This document shows, piece after piece, positions 20,204-60,048 of a DNA stretch of 64,000 nt. The position numbers were made by a program, and so were the translations under genes. Each line of letters begins with the position of its first letter. The stretch's first letter is position 1. The notes below the pieces were generated by a model. That model had not been told where the DNA came from. It did no database searches and saw only the letters and a list, made by a program, of their open reading frames with translations. The stretch covers positions 1 through 64,000 of the forward strand of contig NZ_JACJRS010000024.1 in assembly GCF_014697375.1 (NCBI RefSeq), given 5' to 3'. The DNA is from Phormidium sp. FACHB-1136 (GTDB lineage Bacteria > Cyanobacteriota > Cyanobacteriia > Phormidesmidales > Phormidesmidaceae).

Positions 20204-21904
<1,701 letters not shown>

Positions 21905-21916
21905 TCAGAGACAAAC

Positions 21917-21943
21917 TTAGCACTCTCCATAGCCGAGTGCTAA
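21917..21943. promoter_or_regulatory. CIRCE operator (HrcA-binding site)
   Basis: TTAGCACTC, nine bases, then GAGTGCTAA: a perfect match to the CIRCE consensus inverted repeat. It lies upstream of groEL. Confidence 0.97.
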
Positions 21944-22084
21944 CTTGGCTAGCGTACCGCCGCCCAGTACCCAAGGTAAGTCGCAATAACCGATCCTTAG
22001 GTGGGGCCAAGGGATCGAGGCTAGGCCGAGGTCTGATACCAATCCTAGTGGGATAACTCCGAATTCCCAGCCCAGTAAACCTTA

Positions 22085-22103
22085 GGGACGAGGTCTCCTC
22101 GCC
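22085..22103. repeat. Dispersed palindrome (GACGAGG/CCTCGCC type)
   Basis: The sequence GGGACGAGGTCTCCTCGCC is a near-perfect hairpin of the same family as the copies at about 59238-59263, 60365-60428 and 61047-61070. It abuts the permease gene fragment and appears to mark where that fragment is truncated. Confidence 0.65.
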
Positions 22104-22104
22104 T

Positions 22105-22222
22105 GCTGATACCGGGGGCCACACCAGCCAGGGTTGCAGCACCAGAATGGAGGCGTTGGTGGCGAGGGTGAGCATATTGCCCCAGGAGGAGGCGTTTTTT
22201 GGTATGCCGAGACCTACCAATC
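22105..22222 (-). pseudogene. Fragment of a DppC-type ABC permease gene
   Basis: The minus strand encodes about 34 residues (GLGIPKNASSWGNML onward to LQPWLVWPP) nearly identical to part of the intact permease at 23105-24148 (GLGIQQPDASWGNML onward to LQPWLVWPP). The copies differ at several bases, so this is an older duplicate or the relic of a paralogue. It has no start, is cut at the 3' side by a dispersed palindrome and at the 5' side by the GIY-YIG gene. It is not functional. Confidence 0.8.
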
Positions 22223-23050
22223 CTACACGTCCTGAAGCTGCTTGAAGCCTCCCAACTGAAGCAGTATTTTTGCAAAGTCTGAACGCTCGCAATTTGTGAA
22301 ACCTAAACTCAGGTAGCTTTTTTTGAATTCTGAAAAACCTGGCATGGCATTAAGAACCACGTAATCACCTTTGAAAATCCTTGAATTTCCTCCATAAACA
22401 ATGAATTCCGAAGCATAATCATCGCTTTCCTCATAGCCATAAGGAATAAAGCAACTGATTAACATATAAATTCTGTCTCGTTTGAATTCTTTCAGGCATG
22501 ACAGATTAGGATATTCTTCGTTTTCGTAATCTTCAAACAGGCCGGAGGCGATCAAAAAGATTGGTCTTGAGTCATTAATGGCCTTGGTGATCATAGACCG
22601 TTTGCTTGTATTCACGCATAATTCATCACCGTCTTCGGCATCGAAATGAGTGCAGTACCCAGCTTGCTTTGCATTATGAGTCTGGACATATACTGGGCCA
22701 TGTAAGGTCTTGATTTCAGGCTCACAGGGGACGGATGTGTTATTAATGGGTGGCTTGTAGAAATCCATCGCCTGCTTCTCAAGGTTTCTCAGAGATGGCT
22801 CGATATCTTGAAGTTTCCCTACCATATCTGGGGGCAACGTTCTAAAGCGAATCTCTACATTGTTAATCGACTCAAATTGACTCTTCCGATGGTGGCTGAT
22901 ATGCCTTGCTTTTAAATTTCTTGAGAGGCCAACATACATCACGGGTTCGTCTGCGTTGCCAACAAAGTAAATCCCAGGCAAGGACGGTAGTTCTCGCCGT
23001 TGGCTATAGGCAAGGCAGGACATCGACTTTACATGAAGATTCAATTTCAT
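22223..23050 (-). CDS. GIY-YIG domain protein
   Basis: This 275-residue protein has an N-terminal GIY-YIG nuclease-type domain. LPGIYFVGN is the GIY strand, MYVGLSRNLKARHISHHR is the YIG strand with the catalytic Arg helix, and a Glu in RNLEKQAMDFYKP fits the metal-binding position. The C-terminal half (about 110-275) matches nothing I know. It is distinctly more AT-rich than its neighbours and sits between a permease fragment and an intact permease gene, which suggests recent acquisition. It could be a homing-type or selfish endonuclease, or a stand-alone repair or defence nuclease. Confidence 0.72.
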   Translation of the reverse strand: MKLNLHVKSMSCLAYSQRRELPSLPGIYFVGNADEPVMYVGLSRNLKARHISHHRKSQFESINNVEIRFRTLPPDMVGKLQDIEPSLRNLEKQAMDFYKPPINNTSVPCEPEIKTLHGPVYVQTHNAKQAGYCTHFDAEDGDELCVNTSKRSMITKAINDSRPIFLIASGLFEDYENEEYPNLSCLKEFKRDRIYMLISCFIPYGYEESDDYASEFIVYGGNSRIFKGDYVVLNAMPGFSEFKKSYLSLGFTNCERSDFAKILLQLGGFKQLQDV

Positions 23051-23104
23051 AGATTTACCGCTAACGGGCTACCTCTTATTTTGGATAAGGCGCTTTTCAC
23101 GTCA

Positions 23105-24148
23105 CTACTGCTTCAAGGTTCTTGGATCTAAGGCATCCCGCAGACCATCGCCCAGCAGGTTAAAGGCAAGGGAGGTGACCACAATCAAAATAGCGGGAGG
23201 CCACACGAGCCAGGGTTGCAGCACCAGAATCGAGGCATTGGTGGCAAGGGTGAGCATGTTGCCCCAGGAGGCGTCGGGTTGTTGGATGCCGAGGCCGATG
23301 AAGCTCAGCACTGCTTCCGCCAGGATGAAGCCGGGGATGGCCAGGGTGGCGGCGATGATGCCGTAGGTGGCGGTTTGGGGCAAAACGTGGCGGGTGATGA
23401 TGTAGAGGGGGCGTCCGCCCATGACACGGCTGGCCTGAACAAAGTCTTGCTCTTTGATGGAGAGGACTTGGCCCCGGATGACCCGTGCCAATCCGGCCCA
23501 GCCCACCAGGGAAGTGATCAGCACAATCAGGAAGAAGCGCTGAATGCTGCTGAGGCCAGCGGGAAGGACGGCGGCAAGGGCCACCAGCAGGTAAATGCTG
23601 GGGATGGTCATCAGCACTTCTACAAAGCGCATGAGGACGGCATCGACCATGCCGCCAAAGTATCCGGCGATGCCGCCCACTAGCAGGCCCAAGGGGAAGG
23701 AAATGATGATGCCAATGAGTCCGACGGCAAGGCTAACGCGGCTGCCGTGGATGAGGCGGCTGAATTGGTCGCGGGCCTGTTCGTCGGTGCCGAGGAGGTT
23801 GAGGTAGCCGGGGCCAGTGGTGTCTAGGAGCTTGAGTTGGCCCGCGTCGTTGCGGTGCAGAATACGCAGGGCGGAGGGCTGGCTGCGGTCTACGATCAGT
23901 TCCCGATTTCCGGTTTCCAAGTCTACCGGGCCTTGGGTGGTGGGGTAGACGTGGGGAAAGAATCGCCCGGTTTCGGCGTCGCGCCAGTAGATTTGGGTGG
24001 GCGGCAGCAGGGAACCGTTAGCCTGGGTGGCGTAGGGGCTGTAGGGCGCGAAGAAGTCGGCCCCAAGGGCGACCGTGTAGAGCACGATCAGCAGCACAGC
24101 CCCCAGTTGGGCTAGGCGATTGGTTTTAAGTTTGCGCCACCAGGTCAT
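23105..24148 (-). CDS. Peptide/nickel-type ABC transporter permease (DppC/OppC family)
   Basis: This 347-residue permease has one N-terminal helix (about 15-32), a periplasmic segment of about 95 residues containing LLGTDEQARDQFSRLIHGSR, then five helices. It carries the permease signature QASRVMGGRPLYIITRHVLPQ. That arrangement is the DppC/OppC type, which with a DppB-type partner imports di- or oligopeptides or related solutes. No partner permease, ATPase or binding protein is adjacent, so the transporter is assembled from distant genes, as is common in cyanobacteria. Confidence 0.88.
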   Translation of the reverse strand: MTWWRKLKTNRLAQLGAVLLIVLYTVALGADFFAPYSPYATQANGSLLPPTQIYWRDAETGRFFPHVYPTTQGPVDLETGNRELIVDRSQPSALRILHRNDAGQLKLLDTTGPGYLNLLGTDEQARDQFSRLIHGSRVSLAVGLIGIIISFPLGLLVGGIAGYFGGMVDAVLMRFVEVLMTIPSIYLLVALAAVLPAGLSSIQRFFLIVLITSLVGWAGLARVIRGQVLSIKEQDFVQASRVMGGRPLYIITRHVLPQTATYGIIAATLAIPGFILAEAVLSFIGLGIQQPDASWGNMLTLATNASILVLQPWLVWPPAILIVVTSLAFNLLGDGLRDALDPRTLKQ

Positions 24149-30007: not shown

Positions 30008-30079
30008 GCGGGTGTAGTTCAGTGGTAGAACGTCAGCTTCCCAAGCTGAATGTCGTGAGTTCGAGTCTCATCACCCGCT
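30008..30079 (+). tRNA. tRNA-Gly (anticodon CCC)
   Basis: The 72-nt cloverleaf is complete. A perfect 7-bp acceptor stem (GCGGGTG/CACCCGC), the D-arm, an anticodon stem TCAGC/GCTGA with loop TTCCCAA (anticodon CCC) and a T-arm with TTCGAGT are all present. CCA is not encoded. It is the attachment target of the neighbouring transposon: its D-loop/anticodon region carries a GTG PAM and a 17-nt protospacer matched by the homing guide at 30240-30256. The tRNA itself is intact. Confidence 0.95.
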
Positions 30080-30086
30080 TTTCCTA

Positions 30087-30206
30087 TGTACAGTGACACG
30101 TTATTTGTCATCAGTGACAGATTGGTGTCGTCGAGGCCATATTAGTGTCATCGGGCCAAAATCTTGTCGTCAAACGACTGGTGACACATTGAATGTCGTT
30201 TAGCTT
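30087..30206 (+). mobile_element. Type V-K CAST (Tn7-like) transposon end
   Basis: The end begins TGTACAGTGACA and contains at least five spaced TGTC(A/G)TC-type motifs (near 30106, 30126, 30146, 30167 and 30195), the pattern of TnsB-binding repeats. It closely resembles the terminal sequence of the characterised ShCAST element, which also starts TGTACAGTGACA. It begins 7 bp after the tRNA-Gly gene and 62 bp downstream of a GTG PAM, within the 60-66 bp spacing known for V-K insertion. Genes inside the element (homing guide, array, tracrRNA, cas12k) follow in the expected order. The opposite end and tnsB, tnsC and tniQ are not in the window. Confidence 0.88.
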
Positions 30207-30239: not shown

Positions 30240-30264
30240 GGAAGCTGACGTTCTACCTTTCAAC
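30240..30264 (-). CRISPR. Delocalised homing guide: truncated repeat plus tRNA-matching spacer
   Basis: On the minus strand GTTGAAAG (30264-30257), the 3' end of the V-K repeat, is followed by GTAGAACGTCAGCTTCC (30256-30240). Those 17 nt match the tRNA-Gly gene at 30025-30041 exactly, and identity stops at nt 18. The target is preceded by GTG, a valid Cas12k PAM. This is the arrangement reported for V-K transposon homing crRNAs: separate from the array, near the transposon end, with about 17 matched bases and a degenerate repeat. Confidence 0.88.
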
Positions 30265-30282
30265 TCGCTAAATAATTTTCCC

Positions 30283-30353: not shown

Positions 30354-32736
30354 CCGCCAACCTCCCCTGTGCAGGGTGGTTGATTGTGACACGGCATACC
30401 AACCAATAAAAAGAAGATCGTCGTTCTTTCAACCTCCCCTGTGCAGGGTGGTTGATTGTGACTAGGCCTCCATCGCCTACTAAAGCTTACGAGATTTCTT
30501 TCAACCTCCCCTGTGCAGGGTGGTTGATTGTGACTCCGTAGACCGTGAGAGGACTGCCCAGTAGGGCGTACTTTCAACCTCCCCTGTGCAGGGTGGTTGA
30601 TTGTGACTAGCCTTATATTACGGATTGCTTAAAATTCCGGGATCTTTCAACCTCCCCTGTGCAGGGTGGTTGATTGTGACTTGAATTGTTCGCGCTACAA
30701 CTTCACCGATGAAAACTTTCAACCTCCCCTGTGCAGGGTGGTTGATTGTGACGACCATTGATGGTGAACTGGGCACACTCCCTCCTCTTTCAACCTCCCC
30801 TGTGCAGGGTGGTTGATTGTGACCTACCACATCAGCGGCATCACTAAGCGGTGCAGGGTGGTTGATTGTGACTTCCCACTCCCACAGGGCATCAATTAGA
30901 TCTTCTAGGCGGCATCACTAAGCGGTGCAGGGTGGTTGATTGTGACATGGATAGCGAGATAAACGCCTGGGATACGTCAACGGCATCACTAAGCGGTGCA
31001 GGGTGGTTGATTGTGACTCGCCTGTTCGGGCCGCTTCCCTAAACAATTCCTGTCCGGCATCACTAAGCGGTGCAGGGTGGTTGATTGTGACGTGGTAGGG
31101 TTCCCTAAGCCCATAGGCTCAACTGCTCCGGCATCACTAAGCGGTGCAGGGTGGTTGATTGTGACTTCAACGTCGCCTACTGCTGATGGACGCCCTTGGA
31201 CCGGCATCACTAAGCGGTGCAGGGTGGTTGATTGTGAGGGCTGGCACCTCGCCATCTGGCTTGATTTCTACCCCGGCATCACTAAGCGGTGCAGGGTGGT
31301 TGATTGTGACAATCGCACCAATCGGGCAAAAATACCCAGGCCTCCGGCATCACTAAGCGGTGCAGGGTGGTTGATTGTGACGATCTTCCCTTTAATTGAA
31401 AATGCCGTCCCCAATCGGCATCACTAAGCGGTGCAGGGTGGTTGATTGTGACCACCAGCAACGTGATCGAAATCCAAGAAGAAACCCGGCATCACTAAGC
31501 GGTGCAGGGTGGTTGATTGTGAGTGCTGAAATGCTACCGACAGCTACTCGAATCCTCCGGCATCACTAAGCGGTGCAGGGTGGTTGATTGTGACGTTCGT
31601 TGGTATCTTTACGCTTTCTGGCCTCATCCGGCATCACTAAGCGGTGCAGGGTGGTTGATTGTGACGATACACAGCCCCTCCGATAGGGCACCCTAAGAGG
31701 GCATCACTAAGCGGTGCAGGGTGGTTGATTGTGATATCGAGGGGATGCTCAGACAATGCCCAATTTTTCAAGGGCATCACTAAGCGGTGCAGGGTGGTTG
31801 ATTGTGACCTGCGGCCCCTGTGCGGCCCGTGGAGGCGTCCCCGGGGCATCACTAAGCGGTGCAGGGTGGTTGATTGTGACGCACTACTAGAGTGCCCAGC
31901 CCGTCCTGGGCTACGGGCATCACTAAGCGGTGCAGGGTGGTTGATTGTGATATCGGGATGCATATGAATCCCATATTCTTATTGCGGGCATCACTAAGCG
32001 GTGCAGGGTGGTTGATTGTGACCGGCTTGTTGCAATGGTGAGGGGGTCAGCACCCGTCGGGCATCACTAAGCGGTGCAGGGTGGTTGATTGTGACATCGT
32101 GCAGGGCATGGAGTTACGGCCCATTGTGATGGGCATCACTAAGCGGTGCAGGGTGGTTGATTGTGATTTCAGCCGCAGTCACATCAAAGCCGAACCGCTC
32201 GGGCATCACTAAGCGGTGCAGGGTGGTTGATTGTGACTCCCGCCGCCACCTTGCGGTATTGGGTGGGGCTGATCGGGCATCACTAAGCGGTGCAGGGTGG
32301 TTGATTGTGACCACCCCTGAAGCCGTCCACGCTACTCAGCAAGAAGGGCATCACTAAGCGGTGCAGGGTGGTTGATTGTGACCAATCCTGTTAGCGTCAA
32401 TGACCCCGCCCGACTCGGGCATCACTAAGCGGTGCAGGGTGGTTGATTGTGACAAATCCAAAGCTTATTGACCCTGGAACATACGTTGGCATCACTAAGC
32501 GGTGCAGGGTGGTTGATTGTGACGTCTGGGGCTTGCAGGCGTAGCATGACCTGGCCGGGCATCACTAAGCGGTGCAGGGTGGTTGATTGTGACAATCGCG
32601 TGAAGCGCCCCTTATATTCTTCAAAAAGGGCATCACTAAGCGGTGCAGGGTGGTTGATTGTGACGAGAAGAGTTGATAAAGAATCTCGTAGTAACGCTCG
32701 GGCATCACTAAGCGGTGCAGGGTGGTTGATTGTGAC
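30354..32736 (-). CRISPR. CRISPR array A: 34 repeats of V-K origin, with three repeat generations
   Basis: Thirty-four 37-nt repeats alternate with spacers of about 34-37 nt; transcription is leftward from a leader near 32740. All repeats share a 22-nt 5' part starting GTCACAATC and ending CTGCAC. The seven leftmost (30354-30823) end AGGGGAGGTTGAAAG, the usual V-K 3' end. The next twelve (30836-31665) end CGCTTAGTGATGCCG and the last fifteen (31699-32736) end CGCTTAGTGATGCCC, except one ending in A at 32487. The leftmost repeat is degenerate, as expected at the trailer. At the switch the spacer is only 12 nt (30824-30835) and the period 49 instead of about 72. Small last-base changes occur on the leader side of five repeats (31238, 31523, 31735, 31951 and 32167). 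Confidence 0.95.
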
Positions 32737-32741
32737 GCAGG

Positions 32742-32776
32742 CTTCTGAAAGGAGCTCAAGATAAGGCTTTCAGAAG
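32742..32776. repeat. Inverted repeat in the array A leader
   Basis: CTTCTGAAAG (32742-32751) and CTTTCAGAAG (32767-32776) are perfect 10-bp inverted copies starting 6 bp from the first repeat. They could bind an adaptation factor, or form the 3' end of the tracrRNA or a terminator ahead of the array. Confidence 0.6.
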
Positions 32777-32919
32777 GTGTTTGCGCGGATCGCCTCATCC
32801 ATCCTGGCGGTACTGGTGAGGTTGGGGGCCTTTTGACTTGGGCAAAGACTCGAAACAACCGTGTGACGGGTCGTTTGGCCTTAGCGCGGATCGAGAAGGC
32901 GTATTTCATCCTTCCGAAG

Positions 32920-33248
32920 ACCCTCAACCCCAGTATTGGAGCGAGTTCCCCCTTGGTCGGGGGTGATTCGGTAGCCACTACAGCAGTACATCCGCACCCT
33001 TATTGCTGGGAGCGCACCTACGCCATAATTGGAGTTGCAAGCCCACCAACTACGACTTAATCTCTTCGGAGAGGCCGAAGCCCCTCGTCCGACAGCATCA
33101 GGGCGAGTAGCTACCAGGGCCAGAAAGCACGGCTGTTTTCCAACAGCCAAACTAACCCTTATTTCACACGACTCAGAGGCTAACGCATGAGTCGCGGCGC
33201 GATTGAGGCATTCGGTTGTCTAGGTTCAACGGTCGGGTTCAAAGCTGT
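32920..33248 (-). ncRNA. tracrRNA of the type V-K CAST
   Basis: The minus strand carries blocks that match the characterised ShCAST tracrRNA in the same order. These are GCGCCGC, GCCTCTGAG, AAGGGTTAGTTTG with a hairpin of GGCTGT/ACAGCC, CTTTCTGGCCCTGGTAGCT, CTCGCCCTGATGCTG, TAGGTGCGCTCCCAGCAATA, GCGGATGTACTGCTGTAGTG, and CACCCCCGACCAAGGGGG. It lies between cas12k and the array, as in other V-K loci. Ends are approximate: the 5' end is set from a TATAAT at 33255-33260 and the 3' end just after the expected anti-repeat. That anti-repeat reads AACTCGCTCC and pairs poorly even with the ancestral repeat end. Confidence 0.88.
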
Positions 33249-33276: not shown

Positions 33277-35270
33277 CTAAGGTACTACCGTTTGTCGGGC
33301 CTCGTAGGCGGCTATGGCTACGGCTTTTGCTCGCTCCTGGGGATTTTGCCGCCAGGGTTGTTTGACGGTTTCGATGACGAGTCCTTGCTGGGCGGCTTTG
33401 CTGGCTACTTGATCGAGTAGTCTGCTGTAGCTCCATTGGTGGATGCTGATTTTGTATTGCTTGGCGTAGCGTTTCTGGCCTTCGATGGAACCGGGCGCTT
33501 TTTGCTCGGCTTTGGTCTGAATTTCGGCCTGAAGGGTTTCGCGAATGTTGTCTAGCGTGGGAATGGCGATGCTCCCGGCTCCATACTGCTGGGCCACAGC
33601 GACGACGGCCTTGGCCAGTAGGCGATCAAGATGTTCTCCCAGGTTGGAGGTGCCAAAGCGGTTATCTTTGCCCTGGCGCTGGGCCTTGTGGCGGCGATGG
33701 GACTGCTGCTGTTGGTCTCGGCGGTGTTTGAGGAAGAGGCTGTAGTCTTCACCCAGGAGTTGCCGGAGGCTGCGATAGGTCAGGACTTCCTGGGTGCTAG
33801 CGTTCCAAATCGCTAGGGTAAGCGGGACATCCCAGCCCAGGCTGAGGCCAGCGATGATGTGGGCTTGTCCTTGGTCGCGGGGGCGGCTGGGGCGATGGAA
33901 GGAGCTATCGAGGCGCTCTAGGGTGGAGGTGAGGCGTTTGGCATAGCCTGCCTGGGTTTTGGATAAGTCACCTTTCTCGTTGAGGCGGGTGAGTAGACCT
34001 TATCGGTAATAAATTGTTCTTCATGTAAATACACGCATTAACGGCAGGAACATTCGATTCCAGATGAAGAATTGACTGCTTTTTTAATTCCGATTAAGTC
34101 TAGTATCTGGGCGACATCGGCAGCTTTTTCCTGGCGCACGTCGTCGGTGCCCTCGGCGCTCCAGAGGCGGGTATCGACGGTGCAGGAGAGGGTAAGGGTG
34201 TGGACATCCCAGGGGTGGCCTTGGTGGTCATCGCATTCTTGCCAGGAGAGGCGGGCGGAACGCAGGGCAAAGAGGGCACTGGAGTGCTGGTTTTTGCTGG
34301 CCCGCTTGGTTTCTTGGTCGTCGAGGAAGCGCTGAAACCAGGGCAGTTGTCGTTGGTCACAGTAGATTTGAAACCGATGTTCGCTCAGGCCGTTGAAGCG
34401 CACACAGAGACGACCGGAGGCATTCCGCGACCAGACGAGGTCTTCGTTGGTTTCAAACAGGATGGGGAAGGGGATGGTGCGGGGCTGGGCCAACAGTCTG
34501 TCTTGCCACTGCTTATGTTCGCGGTTGTCTTTGGGGACGGTGGTGGTGGCGGTGAGCAGGGTGGAGAGCCACGCTTGTCCGGTGAGGTCTCGGCCTTTGG
34601 GAAGGCGGGCTTCGAGCTGGTCTTGGAGGCGCTGCACCTGAATTTCGGCTTTGCGGCGGCGGTGGGCAAATTTGTCGGGGTCTTCGGGGTGGTCGGGAAT
34701 CTTGACCCCGTTTTTGAGGAGATAGGCGGTGGCACAACGGATCAGGGGTTGTTTGGCCTGGTCGTGCTTTTTGAACAGATGTGCCCTGATGGCGGCTGGC
34801 TTAGATTGGCCTGAGTTCCCTGCATCCTCAATGGCCGTTTCAGCGTCATCCAAAATCTGGGCGGCTTTATCTTGGATGTCTTCTAGATCATGGCCACATA
34901 GCTCAACCAGTTCGTCATCGCTTTTGAGGATGGTGAGCCAGGTTTGTTTGCCAGAGATTTGCTGCTGGAGGCGGCGTTGCAGGGTAAACCAGGATTTGAA
35001 GATGTAGTTGACGGCTTTTTCGGCGGAGGCATAGAACCGGGAGGGCTGACCGGAGAAGGGGGCTTCTGTTTTCAGGCTTTTGCAGAGCTGGGTCACAACA
35101 TCGGCGGGATGTCGGCCCTTAATCCGCCAGGTTTCAAAGTCTTCGTGGGTGACGATGCCTTGGATGAGGGCGTTAATCAGCGGCGTGTTTTTTTCGGCGG
35201 CGAGTGTCCACAGGTATTGACGGGTCTCAGCAGGGGCGACCAGGCGGCATTGAATCGTTTTTTGAGCCAT
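33277..35270 (-). pseudogene. cas12k: cas12k, interrupted by a 107-bp insertion
   Basis: The gene would encode 627 residues, close to the 639 of ShCas12k, a naturally nuclease-dead Cas12 that guides CAST insertion. The N-terminal part (35270 to about 34105) matches throughout: LNTPLIN-like, SRFYASAEKAVNYIFKSW, MPKGRDLT-like LPKGRDLTGQAWLSTLLTATTTV, VFETNED-like LFETNEDLVWS and KNQHSSALFALR. The C-terminal part (33991-33277) matches equally well (LNEKGDLSKTQ, YRSLRQLLGEDYSLF, GEHLDRLLAKAVVAVAQQY). Between them lies a MITE-like insertion that puts the halves in different frames and ends the first after 17 foreign residues. The start is the ATG at 35270 (AGG 7 nt upstream), not 35288. Promoter, start and stop look intact, so the inactivation seems recent. 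Confidence 0.93.
33995..34101. mobile_element. 107-bp MITE-like insertion in cas12k
   Basis: The insert is AT-rich, has inverted ends (AGACCTTATCGG and, from the other side, AGACTTAATCGG; 10 of 12 match) and is flanked by the 3-bp direct repeat AGT (33992-33994 and 34102-34104). Removing it and one AGT rejoins the codons ADVAQI-LTRLNEKGD of Cas12k without a gap. It encodes nothing. It is probably mobilised by an IS transposase elsewhere in the genome; the family is not known to me. Confidence 0.85.
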
Positions 35271-35438: not shown

Positions 35439-37007
35439 CTAGACTGGCCAGATTTGGGTAAACCCCTGTCTCCCTAGGGTTGGTGCGATGGTGGCCTCGA
35501 AGAGGGTGATGAGGCAGTAGTTATCTTGGGGCTGGTCGCCTTTGTGTTGGCGGACGGTGTAGCCGGAGGGACGAGTTTGGGAGCTGCCACACCAGGCGGG
35601 TCGGTCTGGGGCACTACTGCTACAGACGCCGTGGACGATGTCGCGCCACTGGTCAGGGTTGGTGCTTTGCCAGATGCTGTGGATGCTGCCCTGGGGGAGG
35701 GGGTTGGGTGGGGCGATGGGCAGGTGGTATTGACGGGCGAGGTACTGAATTTGGGCTTGGAGGCTGGCGATGAGGTCGGGGAGGGATTGGTGGCTGTTTT
35801 GGGTGGTGGTGGTGAATTGGCTACCGCGATAGACGGTGCCGTTGCGGAAGCTGTGGGGTGGGCGTCGCCAACCTGGCCCCATGCCGCCGAGGCGTTGACT
35901 GAGTTCTAGCAGGGCATCGACGAGGGGAATGAAGTCGCTGTTGCAGAGGGCTTCGATTTTCCAGGTTTCTTCGGCGTCTTGGCGCAGGATGTTGGCGTAG
36001 CCGTTGTTGTCTGAGGTTTTCGATGTCTGACCGTTGGTGCCGAGGGTTCGTCCGGCGTAGGCCCTAAAGCTGGTGAGGTTGAGGCGGGCCGGACGCCCCA
36101 GGCCACCGAAGACTTGATTGGTGAGGTTGATGGCGTTGGCTTGGTTCATTTGGGAGAGGGCGATGCGGGTGAACCAGCCCCGCAGGTGTGCCCGCAGCAC
36201 TTGGGGAGACCAGCGATATTGGCCGTTGATGCCGTCTTTGAGGTTTCGGGTTTGGATGGCGGGTTTCATGCCTTCGAGTTTGATTGTCCATGTGCCTTGG
36301 GAGGTTTTGCCGAGGCGTCCGAAGCCGGAGGCTTTGCCACGGCCAATGCCTTGATGTAGGAGGGTTTCTTGTAGGCGTTGGGTGAGCCAGGTTTTTTGTT
36401 GGGGGGGTGGGCTGTGGCGCAGGTTGACTTGGAAGGCGATTTTGTCGGGGTTGGTGCTGGGGGGCTCTTGGGGGCCAGCTTGCCATTGGATGGCGAGTCT
36501 GGTGCGGTCTTCTTGGTTGTTTAAGACCTGCCAGGATTGTTGGGGGTTGAGGGGGTAGGGTTCTAGGTTTTTGAGGGGGGTGCTTTCAAAGCGGATGGCG
36601 CGGGGTTTCCAGCCTTGCCCGTTGGGTTCGATGAGGCTTTGCCAGAAGGCTTGTTCTTCGGGGGGCATGGTGGGGTGTTGGCGGCGCAGCCAGGAGAGAA
36701 GTGCGCCTTTGAGGCTGGAGCCGGGGATGCAGGGATAGCCGCCGATTTGGGCGGGGAGGGTCATTTCGTTGGTGACTCTGATGCCGCCGACTTGGATGGG
36801 GGTGAGGATTTGGGCGGTGAGGGTGGCTTTTTTGGAGGGTGGGGCGTAGGCGAGTTGGTTTTTGGCGTACCAGGCTTCTCGGATGACTTTGTTTTCGGGC
36901 TTTTGGGGGCTGATGATGATGTGTTCTGTTTTGGGGATCCAACCTCTTTCTGGGCGGTCTGGATCAATTTGATACCAGAGGGGTTGGGTTGTGGGGAGTG
37001 AGGCCAT
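35439..37007 (-). CDS. Type III-B RAMP protein, Cmr6/Cmr1-like with two RAMP domains
   Basis: This 522-residue protein carries two RAMP modules. The first (about 60-245) has IPGSSLKGALLSWLRR and the glycine-rich loop GIGRGKASGFGRLG, as in Cmr6-type proteins. The second (about 260-400) has LRAHLRGWFTRIA, then QVFGGLGRPARLNLTSF and LGGMGPGWRRPPH, a Cmr1-like pattern. It would supply the Cmr6 and Cmr1 ends of a Cmr complex in one chain. It is separated from cmr5 by array B and a lipoprotein gene but is on the same strand. No other Cmr1 or Cmr6 gene is present, which supports the double role. Exact subtype assignment needs structure-level comparison. Confidence 0.75.
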   Translation of the reverse strand: MASLPTTQPLWYQIDPDRPERGWIPKTEHIIISPQKPENKVIREAWYAKNQLAYAPPSKKATLTAQILTPIQVGGIRVTNEMTLPAQIGGYPCIPGSSLKGALLSWLRRQHPTMPPEEQAFWQSLIEPNGQGWKPRAIRFESTPLKNLEPYPLNPQQSWQVLNNQEDRTRLAIQWQAGPQEPPSTNPDKIAFQVNLRHSPPPQQKTWLTQRLQETLLHQGIGRGKASGFGRLGKTSQGTWTIKLEGMKPAIQTRNLKDGINGQYRWSPQVLRAHLRGWFTRIALSQMNQANAINLTNQVFGGLGRPARLNLTSFRAYAGRTLGTNGQTSKTSDNNGYANILRQDAEETWKIEALCNSDFIPLVDALLELSQRLGGMGPGWRRPPHSFRNGTVYRGSQFTTTTQNSHQSLPDLIASLQAQIQYLARQYHLPIAPPNPLPQGSIHSIWQSTNPDQWRDIVHGVCSSSAPDRPAWCGSSQTRPSGYTVRQHKGDQPQDNYCLITLFEATIAPTLGRQGFTQIWPV

Positions 37008-37084
37008 GGGATGTCTCCAATATTTTCAGTGATGTGTGAATAAACGCTGTACGACATTAAGGTTCAAGACCCTGAGCTTGGTAT

Positions 37085-38214
37085 GTCGCAGCCCCTGTAC
37101 TTTCGTGAGAAGGTCGTGGCCAACGCGCCGAAAAAGTCGCTGAACAGATCGATCTGCCGTCGCAGTACCTATACCTTCTGGAGAAGGTCGTGACTGATGA
37201 ATACCCCAACCAACTAGACCCCGACGCCATAGGATCGCAGCACCTGTACCTTCCGGAGAAGGTCGTGACACATTCACCGCCGAGTGCTTCAAGGCCGGAT
37301 ACGAATGGTCGCAGCACCTGTACCTTCCGGAGAAGGTCGTGACCCCATCAACAAGGCCGTCAAGGTTCAGCAGGCAATCCTGTCGCAGCCCCTGTACCTT
37401 CCGGAGAAGGTCGTGACGAGGTATGGGCGTGGATGCTAACTTTCGACATCATGTCGCAGCCCCTGTACCTTCCGGAGAAGGTCGTGACTTACTGCGGTCG
37501 AGCAGTACAACGTGAGTCGTACGGTGTCGCAGCACCTGTACCTTCCGGAGAAGGTCGTGACTCCCTTTTTTCGGCTGCAAGGGTACGCGGGGACAGGCAA
37601 GTCTCAGCACCTGTACCTTCCGGAGAAGGTCGTGACATCTTCGCTGAAGATACGAAAAAGTTCTGTGATAAGTCGCAGCACCTGTACCTTCCGGAGAAGG
37701 TCGTGACCAGACTCACGCTGTAGCTGTAGCAATGGAAGCTAGGTCGCAGCACCTGTACCTTCCGGAGAAGGTCGTGACCTAAGAACATCGGCTGGAACAA
37801 CGTTGCATCTAACCTGTCTCAGCCCCTGTACCTTCCGGAGAAGGTCGTGACTAAGAAAGTTAAGGGAGTCGAAACGATGACTCCTATTAAGTCGCAGCAC
37901 CTGTACCTTCCGGAGAAGGTCGTGACTAGTAATCTAATGACTCTTAGATACACAACATATGGTCGCAGCACCTGTACCTTCCGGAGAAGGTCGTGACTGG
38001 CAGAAATGCTCGAGCTTCGGGTGTTTGCAGAAGAGTCGCAGCACCTGTACCTTCCGGAGAAGGTCGTGACCAAAAAAGGTAACAACGGTAAAATGACTGC
38101 ACGTCTGTCGCAGCCCCTGTACCTTCCGGAGAAGGTCGTGACGTGGTTCCGTCACTTCATCGCTCAGTTGGAACTGATGTCGCAGCCCCTATACCTTCCG
38201 GAGAAGGTCGTGAC
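37085..38214 (-). CRISPR. CRISPR array B: 16 repeats, type III-associated
   Basis: Sixteen 36-nt repeats at a period of about 73. On the minus strand they begin GTCACGACCTTCTCCGG and end GCTGCGAC, with a 6-bp hairpin (ACCTTC/GAAGGT around TCCG). The two leftmost (37085-37120 and 37159-37194) are degenerate, placing the trailer at the left and transcription on the minus strand. Position 28 varies (GTGCTGCGAC or GGGCTGCGAC). It lies between the Cmr6/Cmr1-like gene and cmr5. A seventeenth repeat sits 533 bp to the right at 38748, beyond an intervening gene. The repeat starts with GTCAC like array A, but is otherwise different. Confidence 0.95.
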
Positions 38215-38223
38215 TGGGAGTGC

Positions 38224-38676
38224 TCACCGACAATTTACCTCGTCTAGGCGAAAACTGCCCGACTCGGTCGCCCCAAGGGAAATCACCCCTGTTTCTTTGG
38301 GCCTCAACCCCTGAACTGTATCATTCGTCCAATCCACATTCTGCCCTGCCTCATTGGTCAAACTGGCCTGCACGTAGAGTGTGCTACAGCCTTGCTCAGT
38401 CGTGACCTCATAGTTAAGGCAGTAGTCGTAGATCCCACAATCCCCCGTCGTGATTTTGCGAAAGTAGACAGGGCGTCCGTCTTGGTCACTCTGACTTCGC
38501 CAACCATCCCCCGTGGGCTTCCAGACGGGAGTAGGGGGTGGTTCTGGAGTGGCAACGGCCTGAGGGGTTGGCGTAGGTGTTGGGGTTGGGGGCGGTGTTG
38601 GGATAGAAGCAGTGTCGGGACTAGTGGCACAACCAACCAACCCCAGGATGATTAGCGAAACGGTAAAACGAAGCAT
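38224..38676 (-). CDS. Small lipoprotein embedded in CRISPR array B
   Basis: This 150-residue protein has a lipoprotein signal peptide (SLIILGLVGC, lipobox Cys at about 16). A Pro/Thr-rich linker (repeats of PTPTP, about 25-50) and a small domain with paired cysteines (GDCGIYDYCLNYEV, QGCSTLYVQ) follow. It should be anchored in the envelope, unrelated to CRISPR function. It occupies the whole 533-bp space between the last clustered repeat and a lone repeat of the same array. No transposase or terminal repeats accompany it. Function unknown. Confidence 0.7.
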   Translation of the reverse strand: MLRFTVSLIILGLVGCATSPDTASIPTPPPTPTPTPTPQAVATPEPPPTPVWKPTGDGWRSQSDQDGRPVYFRKITTGDCGIYDYCLNYEVTTEQGCSTLYVQASLTNEAGQNVDWTNDTVQGLRPKETGVISLGATESGSFRLDEVNCR

Positions 38677-38747
38677 GGCACAACCATGAAACTACTCGCT
38701 CAATATGCCCAAACTGGGCTAAAGCTACGCAGACACAACTGCACTAA

Positions 38748-38783
38748 GTCGCAGCACCTGTACCTTCCGGAGAAGGTCGTGAC
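38748..38783 (-). CRISPR. Solitary repeat of array B
   Basis: A perfect 36-nt copy of the array B repeat, separated from the main block by the lipoprotein gene. It lies on the presumed leader side, 22 bp from the stop of the Cmr5-like gene. Confidence 0.93.
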
Positions 38784-38804
38784 GTGGGTTGGAAGAACCC
38801 GATT

Positions 38805-39257
38805 TCAAACCTGGGTGGCGGGTTGGCCAGCCTCCAGCGTATCCTTCAGGCGCATCGTCCAGAATTGAATCGTATCGCCAATTTCCAGCAACAAATCCGT
38901 CAGCAGCATTTGCTGATTAAAATTCAGCGCCTGAAACCGATCCTGAAACTCCAGAGTCGTCATATTCGCTCGAATTTGTAAATCTTGGCCCACAATGCGG
39001 CACAACACCACACGGGCCACCTGCCACGCAAAATATCGCCGTTGATCCTCCGTTCCCGCATTCGGATCGGGCAAACCACCCCCCAACACCACCGGAGACA
39101 ACGACATCGCCCAAAACCGCTCCATCCCCCAACTCGACACAAACTCCGCAATGCCACTAGCGGCCCCCTGCCAATTTTTGAGTTGATCCTTGCTGGTGGC
39201 CCCCGCAATCAACCCTTCAAAGACCCAACGGTCTAGCTCGTAATGTTTAATCGCCAT
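38805..39257 (-). CDS. cmr5: Cmr5-like small subunit of the type III-B complex
   Basis: This 150-residue protein is predicted to be almost entirely helical, with the size and place of Cmr5, the small filament subunit of Cmr complexes. The body includes RRYFAWQVARVVLCRIVGQD and a C-terminal helical LLLEIGDTIQFWTMRLKDTL. Sequence similarity to Cmr5 is too weak to see by eye, so the call rests on position (14 bp after cmr4), length and fold. It is the last gene before array B. Confidence 0.6.
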   Translation of the reverse strand: MAIKHYELDRWVFEGLIAGATSKDQLKNWQGAASGIAEFVSSWGMERFWAMSLSPVVLGGGLPDPNAGTEDQRRYFAWQVARVVLCRIVGQDLQIRANMTTLEFQDRFQALNFNQQMLLTDLLLEIGDTIQFWTMRLKDTLEAGQPATQV

Positions 39258-39271
39258 CGCAAAATACCTCC

Positions 39272-40108
39272 CTAAATCCCCTCAACAATCACTCGGCCAT
39301 AGCCCACACTCCACAGGCCCCCCACATAGTGCTCCTGGTGCAAAAACTGCTCCCAGGCCGGGAGATTCTTCACCTCCGTGCGGCTAGACCAGCTCAGCAA
39401 AAACGCCGCTCCGGGCGGAATTGCCTCCACCGCAAACAGATTTCGTACCAGGGTGTTCTTGTCTGCCTTATCGGGATCTTTCTCATTCTCCTGATCAAAC
39501 TCCTCAACACTCTTCAGGCTCACCCTCGGCTGTCGCACCAGGCCCATATCCACCAGCACCGTAATGCTGTCATCGGGCACCACCAGCAACCGCTGGCGAT
39601 AGTCGTTCAACTCCGGGGGCAGGGGCAGAGGGGCCGGGTCTTGGTAGGTCACATTTTCCAGCTTCACCCAGCGCAAAAAGACCGTCTGCCCTGCCATCTC
39701 CGGGTCAGTAATCAACACCGGATTGGCCGCAAAAGACACCGACTGGCCCGTTAGCTTGCCATAGCGACGGAGCCAAGTGGGGCAGCTTACCCACCAGTTG
39801 CCATAGCCCAACACATGCACGGGCCACCACACCGGCCAACCCCAACCCAACGAAATCCGACCAGGGGCCGACTCAGTGGGGTTGCCGCCAAACCAATTTT
39901 GCACATCGCCCTTATAGGTCGGATCGGCCTCCGCGTGTTCTCGCAGCGCCCCCCGCAACGAACTTCCCGGCAAAACGGGGGTTCGATCCGGCAGGCGAAA
40001 AATGGGATTATTGTTCCCCCGGTTCTCACTATCGGCCCCGCCAATGTGAATGGGTTCGCGGGCTACCAACCAGGCATTTCCGGCCAGGGATGCAGTTGCA
40101 GTGCTCAT
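39272..40108 (-). CDS. cmr4: Cmr4-like backbone RAMP, catalytic Asp apparently replaced
   Basis: This 278-residue RAMP protein forms the repeated backbone of the Cmr complex and normally cuts target RNA every 6 nt. It has the thumb/loop motifs HIGGADSENRG and TPVLPGSSLRGALREH, and ends with VGGLWSVGYGRVIVEG. In Cmr4 and Csm3 the catalytic Asp stands two residues before the Pro of a D-x-P motif. Here the motif reads N-N-P (Asn33, codon AAT), so target RNA cleavage may be lost. It overlaps cmr3 by 4 nt. Csm3 is an alternative name, but the neighbouring Cmr3 fits III-B better. Confidence 0.78.
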   Translation of the reverse strand: MSTATASLAGNAWLVAREPIHIGGADSENRGNNNPIFRLPDRTPVLPGSSLRGALREHAEADPTYKGDVQNWFGGNPTESAPGRISLGWGWPVWWPVHVLGYGNWWVSCPTWLRRYGKLTGQSVSFAANPVLITDPEMAGQTVFLRWVKLENVTYQDPAPLPLPPELNDYRQRLLVVPDDSITVLVDMGLVRQPRVSLKSVEEFDQENEKDPDKADKNTLVRNLFAVEAIPPGAAFLLSWSSRTEVKNLPAWEQFLHQEHYVGGLWSVGYGRVIVEGI

Positions 40109-41088
40109 AGCGTTGTCTCCTTAAATAACCATAGGTGGCCGTAGCCTAAAACATGTCGATGGAAGGGGTCAGTCAGTGGCCCCGACCGTTGGCTGGGGGC
40201 GAGGTCATCCCAGAGATACACCGCCCCCGCCGGAGTCAGCCATTCTCCCGGCGTGAGAACACGGCGCGGCTCCCCAGACTTGGGATGGCGGATGAACTTA
40301 AACGATTGCCACGGCACCCCCAGCCCAGCCCCATAGGCCCAGGGTTTTGGGTGCGGGGGATAGGGCAACGATTGCTTCGTCGTCGGGTCACTCCAGAGTG
40401 CCCCCGTCAACAACACGGCCCCCGTCGCCCCAGGGCAATCGGCCCCTAGGCTATCCCAGCGCTGGCTTAGCCCAGGGGCTACTGGCTGAATCACCACCGG
40501 AGTGCCCCCAGCCCCCAAACGGCTGTGGGTGGGTGGCGTAAAACTGCCCAGGATTCGCACCAAAATTGACCAGCCCGGATTCATCAGCGTGGTCATTTCG
40601 GCAAAGAAGCCCCCCTCCTCCGTCACCTGGTAATCCTTCCGCTGGTTGTGGTTGAGGGTGAGGGTCTCCCAGGGGATGGGCTGAAGATTACTGGTACTCG
40701 TCAGCTTTTGGGCCGACCAAAGCTGCTCTAAATCCTGGGTACGCAGCAAAAACCGATCCGCCAGTTGCTCGATGGATTTGCCCTGGTGCGCCTCCTGCAC
40801 CTGCCACTGCCCCGCCTGCCACTGCATCCGGTAGATGGCCTTCGGTGTGTCGTTCCCCTTTACGGCCTGATCGGTATACACCGTATGGGGTATGGGCACA
40901 TGCAGGTTCCGGTCGTCAAACCAAAATGGCCCCCACAACTGGCAATGGGACGGAAGATCTAAGGCCGCCGCCAAGTGATGCCCATTGGGCGGCCAACGAC
41001 ATCCCACCTGGCCACTGTTTTGCCCCGTCGCCACCAAATTGCCCAGGGTAATTGGCCCCGTTGGCGTGATGCTATACCATCCGGTCAT
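40105..41088 (-). CDS. cmr3: Cmr3-like protein
   Basis: This 327-residue RAMP protein binds the crRNA 5' handle beside Cas10 in Cmr complexes. It opens with the Cmr3-type YSITPTGPITLGNL and has a glycine-rich segment, SRLGAGGTPVVIQPV, as well as a C-terminal VLGYGHLWLF. It overlaps both cas10 and cmr4 by 4 nt, so translation is probably coupled across the operon. A mid-region FFAEMTTLMNPGW is typical of the family's insertion. Identification depends on these patterns and the gene order. Confidence 0.77.
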   Translation of the reverse strand: MTGWYSITPTGPITLGNLVATGQNSGQVGCRWPPNGHHLAAALDLPSHCQLWGPFWFDDRNLHVPIPHTVYTDQAVKGNDTPKAIYRMQWQAGQWQVQEAHQGKSIEQLADRFLLRTQDLEQLWSAQKLTSTSNLQPIPWETLTLNHNQRKDYQVTEEGGFFAEMTTLMNPGWSILVRILGSFTPPTHSRLGAGGTPVVIQPVAPGLSQRWDSLGADCPGATGAVLLTGALWSDPTTKQSLPYPPHPKPWAYGAGLGVPWQSFKFIRHPKSGEPRRVLTPGEWLTPAGAVYLWDDLAPSQRSGPLTDPFHRHVLGYGHLWLFKETTL

Positions 41089-43421
41089 CGTTCACCTCCC
41101 GATTGAGTCGTCCATTGGGATAGCCACTGTTCCCGATCTCGGTCTTGGCGGGCCAGAAAACCGCGTAGGCTCACCCAGCCCAGCCACCAATCCCAATCTC
41201 GGATTTCGTCCCGAAAGTCGAACTTGGCAATGGCGTAAACCTCTGCCCAGGTCAGATCCAGGCCCACGCTCTGCCAAAGGGTGGTCAGCAACTTCTCCGC
41301 CGTGGTGAGATCGGGCTGGTTCTGGCGCACCCGCTCCAGGTAGCCCAGCAGCTTTTCCCAACGGTTGAGGGCGGTTTTGCCATCGGCGGGGTTGCGCTGG
41401 GGAGGGTGGTCTGGGTCTGTGCCAGGGGCCAACACCCAAGGATTGCAAGTCATCAGCCGTTCCCAGAGGGGCCAAGGACAGATCCAGTCCAGGGTTTGGC
41501 CACTGTTAAAGATGACCCGCACACAGACCCGGTTTCTACCCGCCGCCTTAGCCGCCTTGTAGGCTTGGTTCAGCCCCCGATGCCAGAGCGACTGGGGCAC
41601 CCGACGCTGGGCAATCACCAGCCCCAGGCTAAACTGCATCCGTTTTCCGGGTACCGGGTAGGGGGTGCCCTGGTATTGCACCCAGCCATCCACCGGAGGA
41701 TCCAGCGGCTGCGTCAGGGGCGATGCCTCCCCCGACCAAAGCTGATGGAGGCGCGTGGTCAGGGGAACGGCCTCCGGCAATGGCCCCAGCAACAGAAAAT
41801 CATCGCCCCCCGCAAAAATCACCTTGCCGCTATGCTGCTGCTCCACTAGGGGATCAAGAAGCTGATTCCAACGGTCAAACAACACCGACAAATCCAGCAT
41901 GTGGGGCAACTCCAGCCGCCGAGGTTGGCCAGGGGGCGCTTGGGGCGGGTCAATCCCTAGGCCACGGGCGGCAATTTGTTCCGCATCCGGGTGCCACCGA
42001 CTCCAGGGAAGATTTTGCCTGTGGTACTGTTCCCCCGATAGCCACTGGCCCATGTTGTCGCCATCCCCTCGCCAGCCCACCAGCCACTGAATGGGGGTTG
42101 TCCAGGTGGCAGGCACCGCGAGTTCCCAGTATTCCTCCAAGCCCTGGATCTCGCTGTCGTCGGCCCCAGGGTTCCAGGCTTTGAGGTTGCGCCGTTCGAG
42201 GATTTCTGGGTGGGCATAGGAGGCGTTGTCGTCCACCAGGGGAATGCCCCACGGCTTACGACCATCCCGCTGAAATTCCTTGCTGATCCCTGAAATCGTT
42301 TGATTCCAGAGGGTAGCTTCCACTTTAGACGGCACCCAAGCAGCGGCCACCGCCGTCTGATCGGGAAACCGCTCCCAGGGGCAAGTTGGGGCGGAATAGC
42401 CCCATAGACTCTGCAACGTCGCCTCGATAATCTCCGGCACCGAGGCCAGCCGCTTCACCAATTCCAGGCTGTTCAGCCGTTCTTCGGTGCCAAACAACCC
42501 CTGAAAAACGCTGCTTTGGGCCGCCCGTTTCCACCAGTTATCGAGCTGATCCTCCGGTATTCCCCAGGTGCCGCCCTGATCAATCGGACGCAGACCGGGC
42601 TGCCAAATGGATAAACTGCCTGCCGTTGGGCTGGTTTTGCCGCCCCACCAAGGGCCAGCCCAATCGCGCCCCACCTTGCGGCCCTCAATCCGTTGATGGA
42701 GGTCGCGGCTAATCTCCATCACCCGTTCCGGTTCCAGGGGCTGATGTTCGCTATAGACCGACCACAGCGATTGGTGATCTCGGTGAATCACCCGCCAGCC
42801 CACACCGTCCAGCAGCTTTTTGCCGCCCCCGCGCTTGTTCAGCTTGTCTGCCTCATGGGCAATGACGGCATATTCCAGGGTTGCTACCAGGCGGCTCCAT
42901 TCGCGGGTCACGGTTTGATCCAGATCAGCCATCCACCGATCCGCCTGTTCCCCCTGGGCCGGAACCAGCCCCGTCAACACATTGGGCAGTTCCGCCCGCC
43001 AGAAGCGCTCATTATCCGGGCATTGCCCCGTCCTCAGCCACACCATCAACGGCGACAATTGATGCCACGGCAGCAGCACCCGCCCCCCGTTTTCCTCCCA
43101 ATGGTGCATGACCACCGCCGCCAGGTAATGGCACAACCAAGAGGCCACCGCCCAATCGCGCAGCCGCTGCCCCGCCCCCAAAAAAGTCTGGACGGGGCCA
43201 AAGGTCATCACCGCCAAGGATGCATTTTGGGGCAAGGCATCCGGCAACTGGCGCAGGGCTTCTTGGCTGGCCCCACCGCCCCACCAAAACTGGCTTTGCA
43301 GATGGGGCGTTCCCTCCTGCCAGGTTCCACTCACCGGATGGATAGCCACATTGGCCGGGGTGTCTTCGGGCAGGGTGGGATAGAGCTGGCGTTGGGCCAT
43401 CAACCAATCGTGCTGACTCAT
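41085..43421 (-). CDS. cas10: Cas10/Cmr2, cyclic oligoadenylate synthase subunit
   Basis: This 778-residue large subunit has two Palm-like domains. The second keeps an intact cyclase motif, AGGDDF (GGDD at about 538-541), with the supporting WRGDGDNMG strand near 450-457. It should therefore make cyclic oligoadenylates on target RNA binding. I see no convincing N-terminal HD nuclease motif, so ssDNA cleavage is doubtful. Several Trp-rich segments (QFWWGGG, DNWWKRA) are notable. It overlaps the CARF-HEPN gene by 4 nt upstream and cmr3 by 4 nt downstream. The upstream CARF-HEPN protein is its obvious effector. Confidence 0.88.
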   Translation of the reverse strand: MSQHDWLMAQRQLYPTLPEDTPANVAIHPVSGTWQEGTPHLQSQFWWGGGASQEALRQLPDALPQNASLAVMTFGPVQTFLGAGQRLRDWAVASWLCHYLAAVVMHHWEENGGRVLLPWHQLSPLMVWLRTGQCPDNERFWRAELPNVLTGLVPAQGEQADRWMADLDQTVTREWSRLVATLEYAVIAHEADKLNKRGGGKKLLDGVGWRVIHRDHQSLWSVYSEHQPLEPERVMEISRDLHQRIEGRKVGRDWAGPWWGGKTSPTAGSLSIWQPGLRPIDQGGTWGIPEDQLDNWWKRAAQSSVFQGLFGTEERLNSLELVKRLASVPEIIEATLQSLWGYSAPTCPWERFPDQTAVAAAWVPSKVEATLWNQTISGISKEFQRDGRKPWGIPLVDDNASYAHPEILERRNLKAWNPGADDSEIQGLEEYWELAVPATWTTPIQWLVGWRGDGDNMGQWLSGEQYHRQNLPWSRWHPDAEQIAARGLGIDPPQAPPGQPRRLELPHMLDLSVLFDRWNQLLDPLVEQQHSGKVIFAGGDDFLLLGPLPEAVPLTTRLHQLWSGEASPLTQPLDPPVDGWVQYQGTPYPVPGKRMQFSLGLVIAQRRVPQSLWHRGLNQAYKAAKAAGRNRVCVRVIFNSGQTLDWICPWPLWERLMTCNPWVLAPGTDPDHPPQRNPADGKTALNRWEKLLGYLERVRQNQPDLTTAEKLLTTLWQSVGLDLTWAEVYAIAKFDFRDEIRDWDWWLGWVSLRGFLARQDRDREQWLSQWTTQSGGER

Positions 43422-53400: not shown

Positions 53401-53634
53401 GGGATGGGAAAACAGCCGGAGCAGCACCCCTGAGGTACAAAGCCGGAGCCGAGTTTTCTGCGTATCGGGGTTAGCCTGGAAAAGAAACAGCGATCGCTGC
53501 TTGGGATCAGGGGATTCGGATGGATCTTGGCTTACCGTGATGGACTCTGCCAAAAGCTCAATCAGTTTGGCTAAATCTACCGATGGCCGTGCTGAAGGTG
53601 CCTGAATTTGGGCACCCCGATCTTGGGTCGTCAT
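50440..53634 (-). CDS. 1064-residue protein of unknown function in the defence cluster
   Basis: The protein is soluble, mixed alpha/beta, and has no motif I can assign. Features seen are an acidic helix (CDDDDIDTAIDSLEAEQERA, about 225-245) and long helical stretches (about 270-300 and 440-480). The C-terminal third has alternating hydrophobic strands, such as HIILLSHAYGG and ATLHVVDAANRPQSG, and ends RGRVYLSYPALLTHV. Strand order there could suit an RNase H-like fold, but this is speculation. Its stop overlaps the start of the 1297-residue helicase (TGATG), and it lies 135 bp after the DUF1998 helicase. Tight coupling says it works with the helicase. Confidence 0.7.
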   Translation of the reverse strand: MTTQDRGAQIQAPSARPSVDLAKLIELLAESITVSQDPSESPDPKQRSLFLFQANPDTQKTRLRLCTSGVLLRLFSHPKFREMFKASEGSGLVRDFQAPPFGFIAKLGGELPEGSAARLPGHLDNLMAAIDRALDAMLGEDSDLAQLLLAHPAQQLQALASAVKVPFKDQAYRANLQALAFDTSDQSTAAVAKVLVAVEQVEAEDYFGRMKAAIASRLEQRGCDDDDIDTAIDSLEAEQERADSQIQRFLNFLDDAALSRVRLNVTFRIMEAVADQARASIQRENQCLVEYIDRVLALTALVKQEGFAVDLTAHYGQSADFDLSAYLNKATFYTCLAVWPEWETQIFEEKVGNQNSYGVQRGVSYRFRINGQNPEKKKPAFDARLEFIHETLLAEDLLSVSPAKRLAELVVLDAVVPRLSGEVVDISPTTMRQTLQTCLATLQRDGREGIQTLIQDLKDRAGAMKMVARALIKLLQDKSRKIVSQTQRRTAQQFICVKRDIVAWNRLEGAERGVKDLLVSAPNPAQESVAWFEQIDISGTPDVPQLLFSAKVTTELTEHTLVLKEDAPQVMQAQRLFPEQMLQVVWVPFESGRAPSNQTPFYRPTPTAKEANVWALSAAVLVEYELRTLTRNEKQKGQADAQQWYAAAVAAFPVLVYCGLWRILQRLREGAATDLEASQNFTTLMVRLQQAGKSRDSEAEAYVYGAAQTIETLLAQDGPVRMQGITLDNLASDSRKYVKSGAFDALLSAFPLAMTTPTPPALEKIGLISYATRPCDETPGLTVSHQNHLFSTQSYVASAITQPFCGYALRPERTQSDIVKSAEEMQKQRLVREEIGHLRQLGCQHIILLSHAYGGRHLNRVADHNAPLTPVTFLEEVFQSFPDLTLYPLLRDVFPATRLRNRTQTEAAFEISTVGDHVNFLRNTAMEQVRDIIPAYTFATLHVVDAANRPQSGFCAYFLVSEQRVSNLSWTERARQHLLNPEGNSPIHPCLTAVLRGLHFIEAERGVKAGQLIPVLDPFRWISPTTREAAGEVEILHSRRRGRVYLSYPALLTHVSQTLHRRQP

Positions 53635-53769
53635 ATTGGGTGGTCCTCCTTATTCTCGGTCGATGACCGCTTCACTCTCCCTGGGCGACCAACCCAGAGG
53701 AGTGGGAACTAAACTATGATTAGCTTCAGGCTACCCAAAATGTCAAGGCTAGCCAAAGTCATTCTCCAC

Positions 53770-59199: not shown

Positions 59200-59200
59200 G

Positions 59201-59544: not shown

Positions 59545-59555
59545 GGGGAGTGGGG

Positions 59556-60044: not shown

Positions 60045-60048
60045 GGTG

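Follow-up and report, generated by a model that had tools for sequence, protein, structure and literature searches.

The CRISPR array in the window analysed here (64,000 nt, positions 1 to 64,000 of contig NZ_JACJRS010000024.1 of Phormidium sp. FACHB-1136) belongs to a type V-K CAST of a Nodosilinea-like cyanobacterium, a derived element that is disabled. Our joint reading, which we hold to be likely, is that a chimeric repeat arose by one event in the then leader-proximal unit of this V-K array, was copied in trans by the host type I-D system, and is probably unreadable by Cas12k. The locus is a natural experiment in which two jobs of a repeat have been split, the part concerned with guide-RNA structure being replaced and leader-side copying of 37 nt being kept; spacers can still be added with repeats that are probably no longer readable. 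The original prediction had described a chimeric repeat inherited by all newer units, but missed that the array is that of a disabled type V-K CAST and that the altered part is the RNA handle of the effector.

Parsing of the repeats identified 34 copies on the minus strand, running from 32736 to 30354, with the leader from 32737 upward. The repeat of leader-side units 1-27 is 37 nt long in total and consists of a 22-nt core, GTCACAATCAACCACCCTGCAC, followed by CGCTTAGTGATGCC and one further base. Units 28-33 carry the same core with the tail AGGGGAGGTTGAAAG. The last repeat on the trailer side, that of unit 34, is degenerate (AGGGGAGGTTGGCGG), so that the seven trailer-side repeats comprise six intact copies and one degenerate copy. 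Alignment of all 34 repeats confirmed the two predicted types with a common first 22 nt, 27 on the leader side and seven on the trailer side. The predicted irregularity at the switch, a 12-nt spacer and a period of 49 instead of about 72 (some 23 bp short), was also borne out, since the periods of the full units are 70-74 with unit 27 as the sole exception. The parts of the array are as follows.

30836-32736, minus strand: the 27 units on the leader side, whose 37-nt repeat is chimeric (22-nt core, CGCTTAGTGATGCC and C or G), from repeat parsing.
31629-31735, minus strand: second inherited change at the boundary of units 15 and 16, the last repeat base going from G (older units, 16-27) to C (newer units, 1-15), from parsing.
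30824-30872, minus strand: founder unit 27, with the chimeric repeat at 30836-30872 and a 12-nt remnant spacer, CTGATGTGGTAG, at 30824-30835 (period 49), from parsing.
30354-30823, minus strand: seven trailer-side units with the V-K type tail AGGGGAGGTTGAAAG, the last one degenerate, from parsing and comparison with relatives.

Positions 23-36 of the repeat are identical across all 27 leader-side units, and the chimeric 3′ 15 nt agree with the original repeat at 4 of 15 positions. Since 27 copies of the same 14 nt are separated by unrelated spacers, the CGCTTAGTGATGCC tail is not a chance resemblance. Position 37 is G in units 16-27 and C in units 1-15, except for an A in unit 4. The predicted split into 12 older and 15 newer copies by a G-to-C change was thus correct in its boundary, but the newer group consists of 14 copies with C and one with A. 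Two host arrays, one of 116 and one of 113 repeats, are entirely free of variation among their repeats.

Assignment to a type V-K CAST followed from the surroundings of the array. Two fragments of cas12k matched Cas12k profiles (E = 4e-170 and 3e-38), the tracrRNA and cas12k lie upstream of the leader, and both tracrRNA and leader align closely with those of intact relatives. Cyanobacterial V-K CASTs have 37-nt repeats in which the 3′ segment is the most conserved, and they also carry a truncated copy of the repeat (R*) and an anchor spacer of 17 nt (PMC9938897). The features outside the array are listed below.

30008-30079, plus strand: tRNA-Gly(CCC), the attachment site, with the homing protospacer at 30025-30041 and a GTG PAM, from sequence match.
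30087-30200, plus strand: CAST transposon end TGTACAGTGACA (TGTACA) with repeated TGTCATC/TGTCGTC motifs, 63 bp past the homing PAM, from the sequence.
30240-30266, minus strand: homing unit, made up of a truncated repeat, GAGTTGAAAG, at 30257-30266 and a 17-nt spacer, GTAGAACGTCAGCTTCC, at 30240-30256, from sequence match.
32737-32810, minus strand: end of the CRISPR leader, which is conserved among V-K relatives and resembles the host I-D leader, from alignments.
32925-33212, minus strand: highly conserved tracrRNA of the V-K system, from alignment with intact relatives.
33283-33996, minus strand: 3′ part of cas12k (residues 391-628 of an intact homologue), from profiles and homologue alignment.
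33996-34106, minus strand: MITE-like 111-bp insertion in cas12k with imperfect 18-bp terminal inverted repeats, from alignment and genome search.
34083-35270, minus strand: 5′ part of cas12k (residues 1-398 of the intact homologue), the last few residues of the frame lying inside the insertion, from profiles and homologue alignment.
35439-44869, minus strand: type III-B cmr operon and a Csx1-like CARF protein, carried as CAST cargo, from profile search.

The homing spacer GTAGAACGTCAGCTTCC matches at 17 of 17 positions inside the adjacent tRNA-Gly, with a PAM (GTG) that fits GTN. The element is regarded as disabled because cas12k is split, because no intact second cas12k was found in the genome beyond a degraded 621-bp partial match, and because the search for an intact TniQ in the genome returned only a fragment below the cut-off. 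As a control, a full TniQ was found in all six cas12k-bearing relatives. The MITE-like element has one near-full-length copy (85%) elsewhere in the genome, plus shorter or weaker matches. A second array beside the cmr genes (37085-38214) has two repeat positions that each occur in two states, G or T at position 4 and A or C at position 9, with the states intermingled over its length, and a lone intact repeat lies at 38748-38783, about 530 bp past the array end. Beyond the cmr operon, 46547-63998 encodes large helicase-, DNA methyltransferase- and toxin-antitoxin-like genes and resembles a defence island in the same element. On the other side of the window, at 21897-24148, a GIY-YIG-like ORF (22223-23050, placed by eye) adjoins an ABC permease gene, and a duplicated permease fragment (22292-21897) on the far side of the ORF resembles an insertion with a duplicated target piece.

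Relatives were compared with respect to both the repeat and the size of the array. The 22-nt core, allowing three mismatches, occurred in 11 of 65 genomes of the order, with an ordinary tail in all arrays read; the nearest relative, Nodosilinea sp. BSH.14 (G042/L026), has an identical core and an ordinary tail. In this relative (L026, 3738-5276) cas12k runs straight into the array and its C-terminus, the tracrRNA and the leader are missing; the source is a low-coverage MAG, hence the gap is either a deletion or a misassembly. Across the class, V-K arrays contain 2-11 repeats each (n = 30), making the present array, with 34, an outlier three times longer than any, while its older part of seven repeats is of typical V-K size. 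A TTGAAAG/C-type consensus end was present in 30 of 30 other V-K arrays. Units 28-33 have the 37-nt repeat ending in TTGAAAG by which V-K repeats are recognised and the 27 leader-side units do not; the chimeric repeats themselves are not V-K repeats.

A single origin of the chimera, at the unit with the 12-nt spacer, is supported. At this switch (30824-30872), which is known here from the assembled sequence alone, 15 + 12 = 27 nt separate the 22-nt core from the next full repeat. The shortfall is 72 - 49 = 23 bp; with 27 nt remaining from a spacer of about 35 nt, the loss would comprise the 15-nt tail together with 8 nt of the spacer. The array started out with ordinary 37-nt V-K repeats, as still seen in units 28-34, and a single event in the then leader-proximal unit placed 27 nt of other DNA directly behind repeat positions 1-22. 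The simplest reading is that these 27 nt are the rest of that unit's own spacer after a deletion of about 23 bp, and the lost ancestral unit would have held a spacer of about 35 nt ending in CGCTTAGTGATGCCGCTGATGTGGTAG.

Neither the tail nor this spacer was recovered from other sources. The 14-mer CGCTTAGTGATGCC has no exact copy elsewhere in the genome (there are two copies with one mismatch), and the tail does not occur in array-like copy number in any other of the 390 class genomes. The original prediction had proposed a search of related genomes for an array with the ancestral spacer, and this was not fruitful: no spacer with the 27-nt remnant was found in the arrays of relatives or in viral contigs. 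Matches to a wobble pattern of the ancestral spacer (four and one) were several bases off and roughly as numerous as expected by chance, and were rejected. Protospacer searches with the spacers of the array gave chance-level matches only in phage and plasmid records and none in exact scans of viral contigs (n = 4). Leftover spacer DNA is the simplest and most likely source of the tail, a reading that rests on the arithmetic since the remnant is absent from every protospacer or ancestral array sought.

The predicted deletion fusing repeat to spacer DNA stands as the simplest reading of these lengths, but an aberrant 22-bp duplication would give the identical product. In such an acquisition a 27-nt prespacer would have been integrated with the second cut after repeat position 22, so that 22 nt were duplicated and later 37-nt copies took in 15 nt of spacer. 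Half-site and misplaced integration by Cas1-Cas2 are known, and one such event would generate exactly the observed sequence; it requires, however, a 27-nt prespacer, where chimeric-era spacers range from 33 to 37, and a cut shifted by 15 nt followed by a normal ruler on 26 occasions, and we consider it unlikely. Deletion is preferred, since one ordinary event is enough. Fusion of two pre-existing arrays with a common 22-nt core, through recombination or misassembly, would explain why the array falls into two clean blocks sharing the 5′ part of the repeat. The independent, complete CGCTTAGTGATGCC repeat that the original prediction had named as the sign of such a fusion was found neither in this genome nor among the 390 class genomes, and on these searches the idea that the tail is the repeat of another array was rejected. 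Fusion, moreover, would not predict a 12-nt spacer precisely at the switch, and the leader, tracrRNA and homing unit bracket one continuous V-K locus; we regard it as highly improbable.

Once formed, the chimera spread through copying of the leader-proximal repeat at each acquisition, and the G-to-C change was later inherited likewise. The chimeric repeat is present in every unit newer than the founder, through 26 later acquisitions, and the change at position 37 was passed to all newer units but for the one substitution in unit 4. The predicted propagation by duplication of the leader-proximal repeat is supported by this succession of chimera and G-to-C change. At position 1 of the repeat, units 9, 12, 15, 18 and 22 have A or C in place of G, and none of these changes is inherited. 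Copying of the leader-proximal repeat accounts both for 3′ changes that are inherited leaderwards and for base-1 changes that are not, provided that the first cut is occasionally made one base into the repeat, in which case the leader-adjacent copy would retain the leader-side base and the other copy would not. Most relatives in the genus have GG at this border, which may mask the same slip of the cut. In another V-K array (L038, 4165-4924, of G044) the oldest repeats also change in order, though less drastically, with GGCGGAGGG giving way to GGTCAGGGG and then GTTCAGGGG.

The host I-D locus contains cas1, cas4, cas6, csc1, csc2 and cas3. Over the last 50 nt, the V-K leader aligned to the host I-D leader with a score of 14 (shuffles, -4.8 ± 3.2; 0/2000), and its alignment to the host C196 leader did not rise above shuffles (201/2000). 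Mean spacer length was 34.7 in the chimeric era, 35.2 in the I-D array and 38.1 in C196; the chimeric-era lengths differ clearly from C196 (p = 2e-10) and slightly from the I-D array (p = 0.04). Adaptation by I-D systems has been suggested for V-K CASTs (as noted in PMC11406308). Given the leader match, the spacer lengths and this suggestion, our best guess is that the Cas1-Cas2-Cas4 proteins of the host I-D system would insert the spacers, acting in trans.

Simple I-D adaptation does not account for a bias at the start of the spacers. In units 1-26 (30873-32699) the spacer starts with G in 16 of 26 cases and with GA in 10 of 26, and the pattern is not inherited along the array. By comparison, GA opens 5 of 115 spacers of the I-D array, 3 of 75 from related V-K arrays and none of the 6 in the older units (Fisher p about 1e-5 for a bias that was noticed post hoc). 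A ruler slip copying the first bases of the spacer into repeats was considered as a cause and dismissed, matches between adjacent units being only at composition level. The excess of GA over both the I-D array and the related V-K arrays is what might be expected if an adaptation module other than I-D filled the array, but leader likeness and spacer length favour I-D over the C196 module and the other Cas1 locus of the genome (C13) adjoins an array of a different type, making such a module rather improbable.

The effect of the new tail on guide RNAs was predicted from folding energies. A 10-bp hairpin is predicted for the original repeat (-14.2 kcal/mol; 0/500 shuffles) and the chimeric repeat has no such hairpin (-3.6 kcal/mol; 196/500 shuffles), so the new repeats would not form the hairpin plus 3′ handle common to V-K crRNAs. 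No compensation for the new tail was seen in the tracrRNA, which is conserved, and no complement of the tail was found in the leader region. Duplex energies between the conserved 3′ tracrRNA segment and the repeat did not separate original from chimera. A stronger tracrRNA-repeat duplex elsewhere in the tracrRNA was given no weight, as it overlaps a stretch that is variable among relatives. Because the most conserved part of the V-K repeat and the hairpin are lost, no complementary change is seen in the tracrRNA and cas12k is broken, the guides of the 26 post-founder spacers (units 1-26) are probably unreadable by Cas12k.

The new tail might instead be an adapted handle for another effector, such as the cmr cargo or the host I-D system, the array being re-targeted rather than silenced. 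A type III-B operon does adjoin the array, and positions 23-36 are unchanged in 27 units; recent copying alone, however, already predicts unchanged tails, and the tail forms no hairpin and does not resemble the repeats found in the host I-D, C196 and window cmr arrays. We consider re-targeting very unlikely. If the chimeric units are unreadable, loss of the handle may have uncoupled writing from reading and allowed the array to escape a limit of about ten units, becoming write-only through the host I-D system with an altered (GA) choice of spacers; we put this forward tentatively, as a possibility somewhat short of an even chance. It suggests that readable guides may limit array length in V-K CASTs.

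These observations bear on the placement of the second cut by Cas1-Cas2 in the little-studied pairing of I-D and V-K. As copying persisted after the change, neither the particular sequence of the 3′ 15 nt nor the repeat palindrome is required for acquisition here. That the tail was replaced and yet 37-nt copying continued through 26 acquisitions argues that in this system the repeat is measured off by distance, starting at the leader side; the I-D complex would recognise the leader plus the leader-side portion of the repeat and place the second cut by distance rather than by 3′ sequence or palindrome. The original statement, which reduced the requirements of adaptation to the leader-side 22 nt and a length ruler, holds insofar as the 3′ 15 nt are dispensable. 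As a claim of sufficiency it goes too far, since fewer than all 22 nt may be needed and the array also retains a conserved leader.

It is already known that mutations in repeats can be inherited; what is new is the scale, the CAST context and the dispensability of the 3′ 15 nt for acquisition. Repeat indels and multiple point mutations may pass to later repeats during duplication (CRISPRDetect, PMC4869251). The present array resembles those cases in that repeat mutations were carried into newer repeats, but here 15 of 37 nt were swapped at once for non-repeat DNA and carried through 26 acquisitions. No report of wholesale tail replacement so propagated was found in the literature covered, which was without one key preprint on repeat mutations. 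Rulers placing the second cut at a set distance are described for II-A (PMC6895254), V-A (PMC13034035) and I-E (Goren 2016, cited therein). The length of the II-A repeat is set partly by an element close to the second site (PMC6895254), and in V-A mutations near the second site lower full-site integration (PMC13034035). The likeness to the II-A and V-A rulers lies in a second cut at a set distance; those systems need or prefer sequence near the second site, whereas here this sequence was replaced and 37-nt copying persisted. With ShCAST, AcCAST and AnCAST the element shares Cas12k, a tracrRNA, 37-nt repeats, a truncated homing repeat, a 17-nt tRNA anchor spacer and the TGTACA end. It differs from them in its interrupted cas12k, in that no intact TniQ was found, and in that 27 of its 34 repeats are without the 3′ segment called most conserved in PMC9938897.
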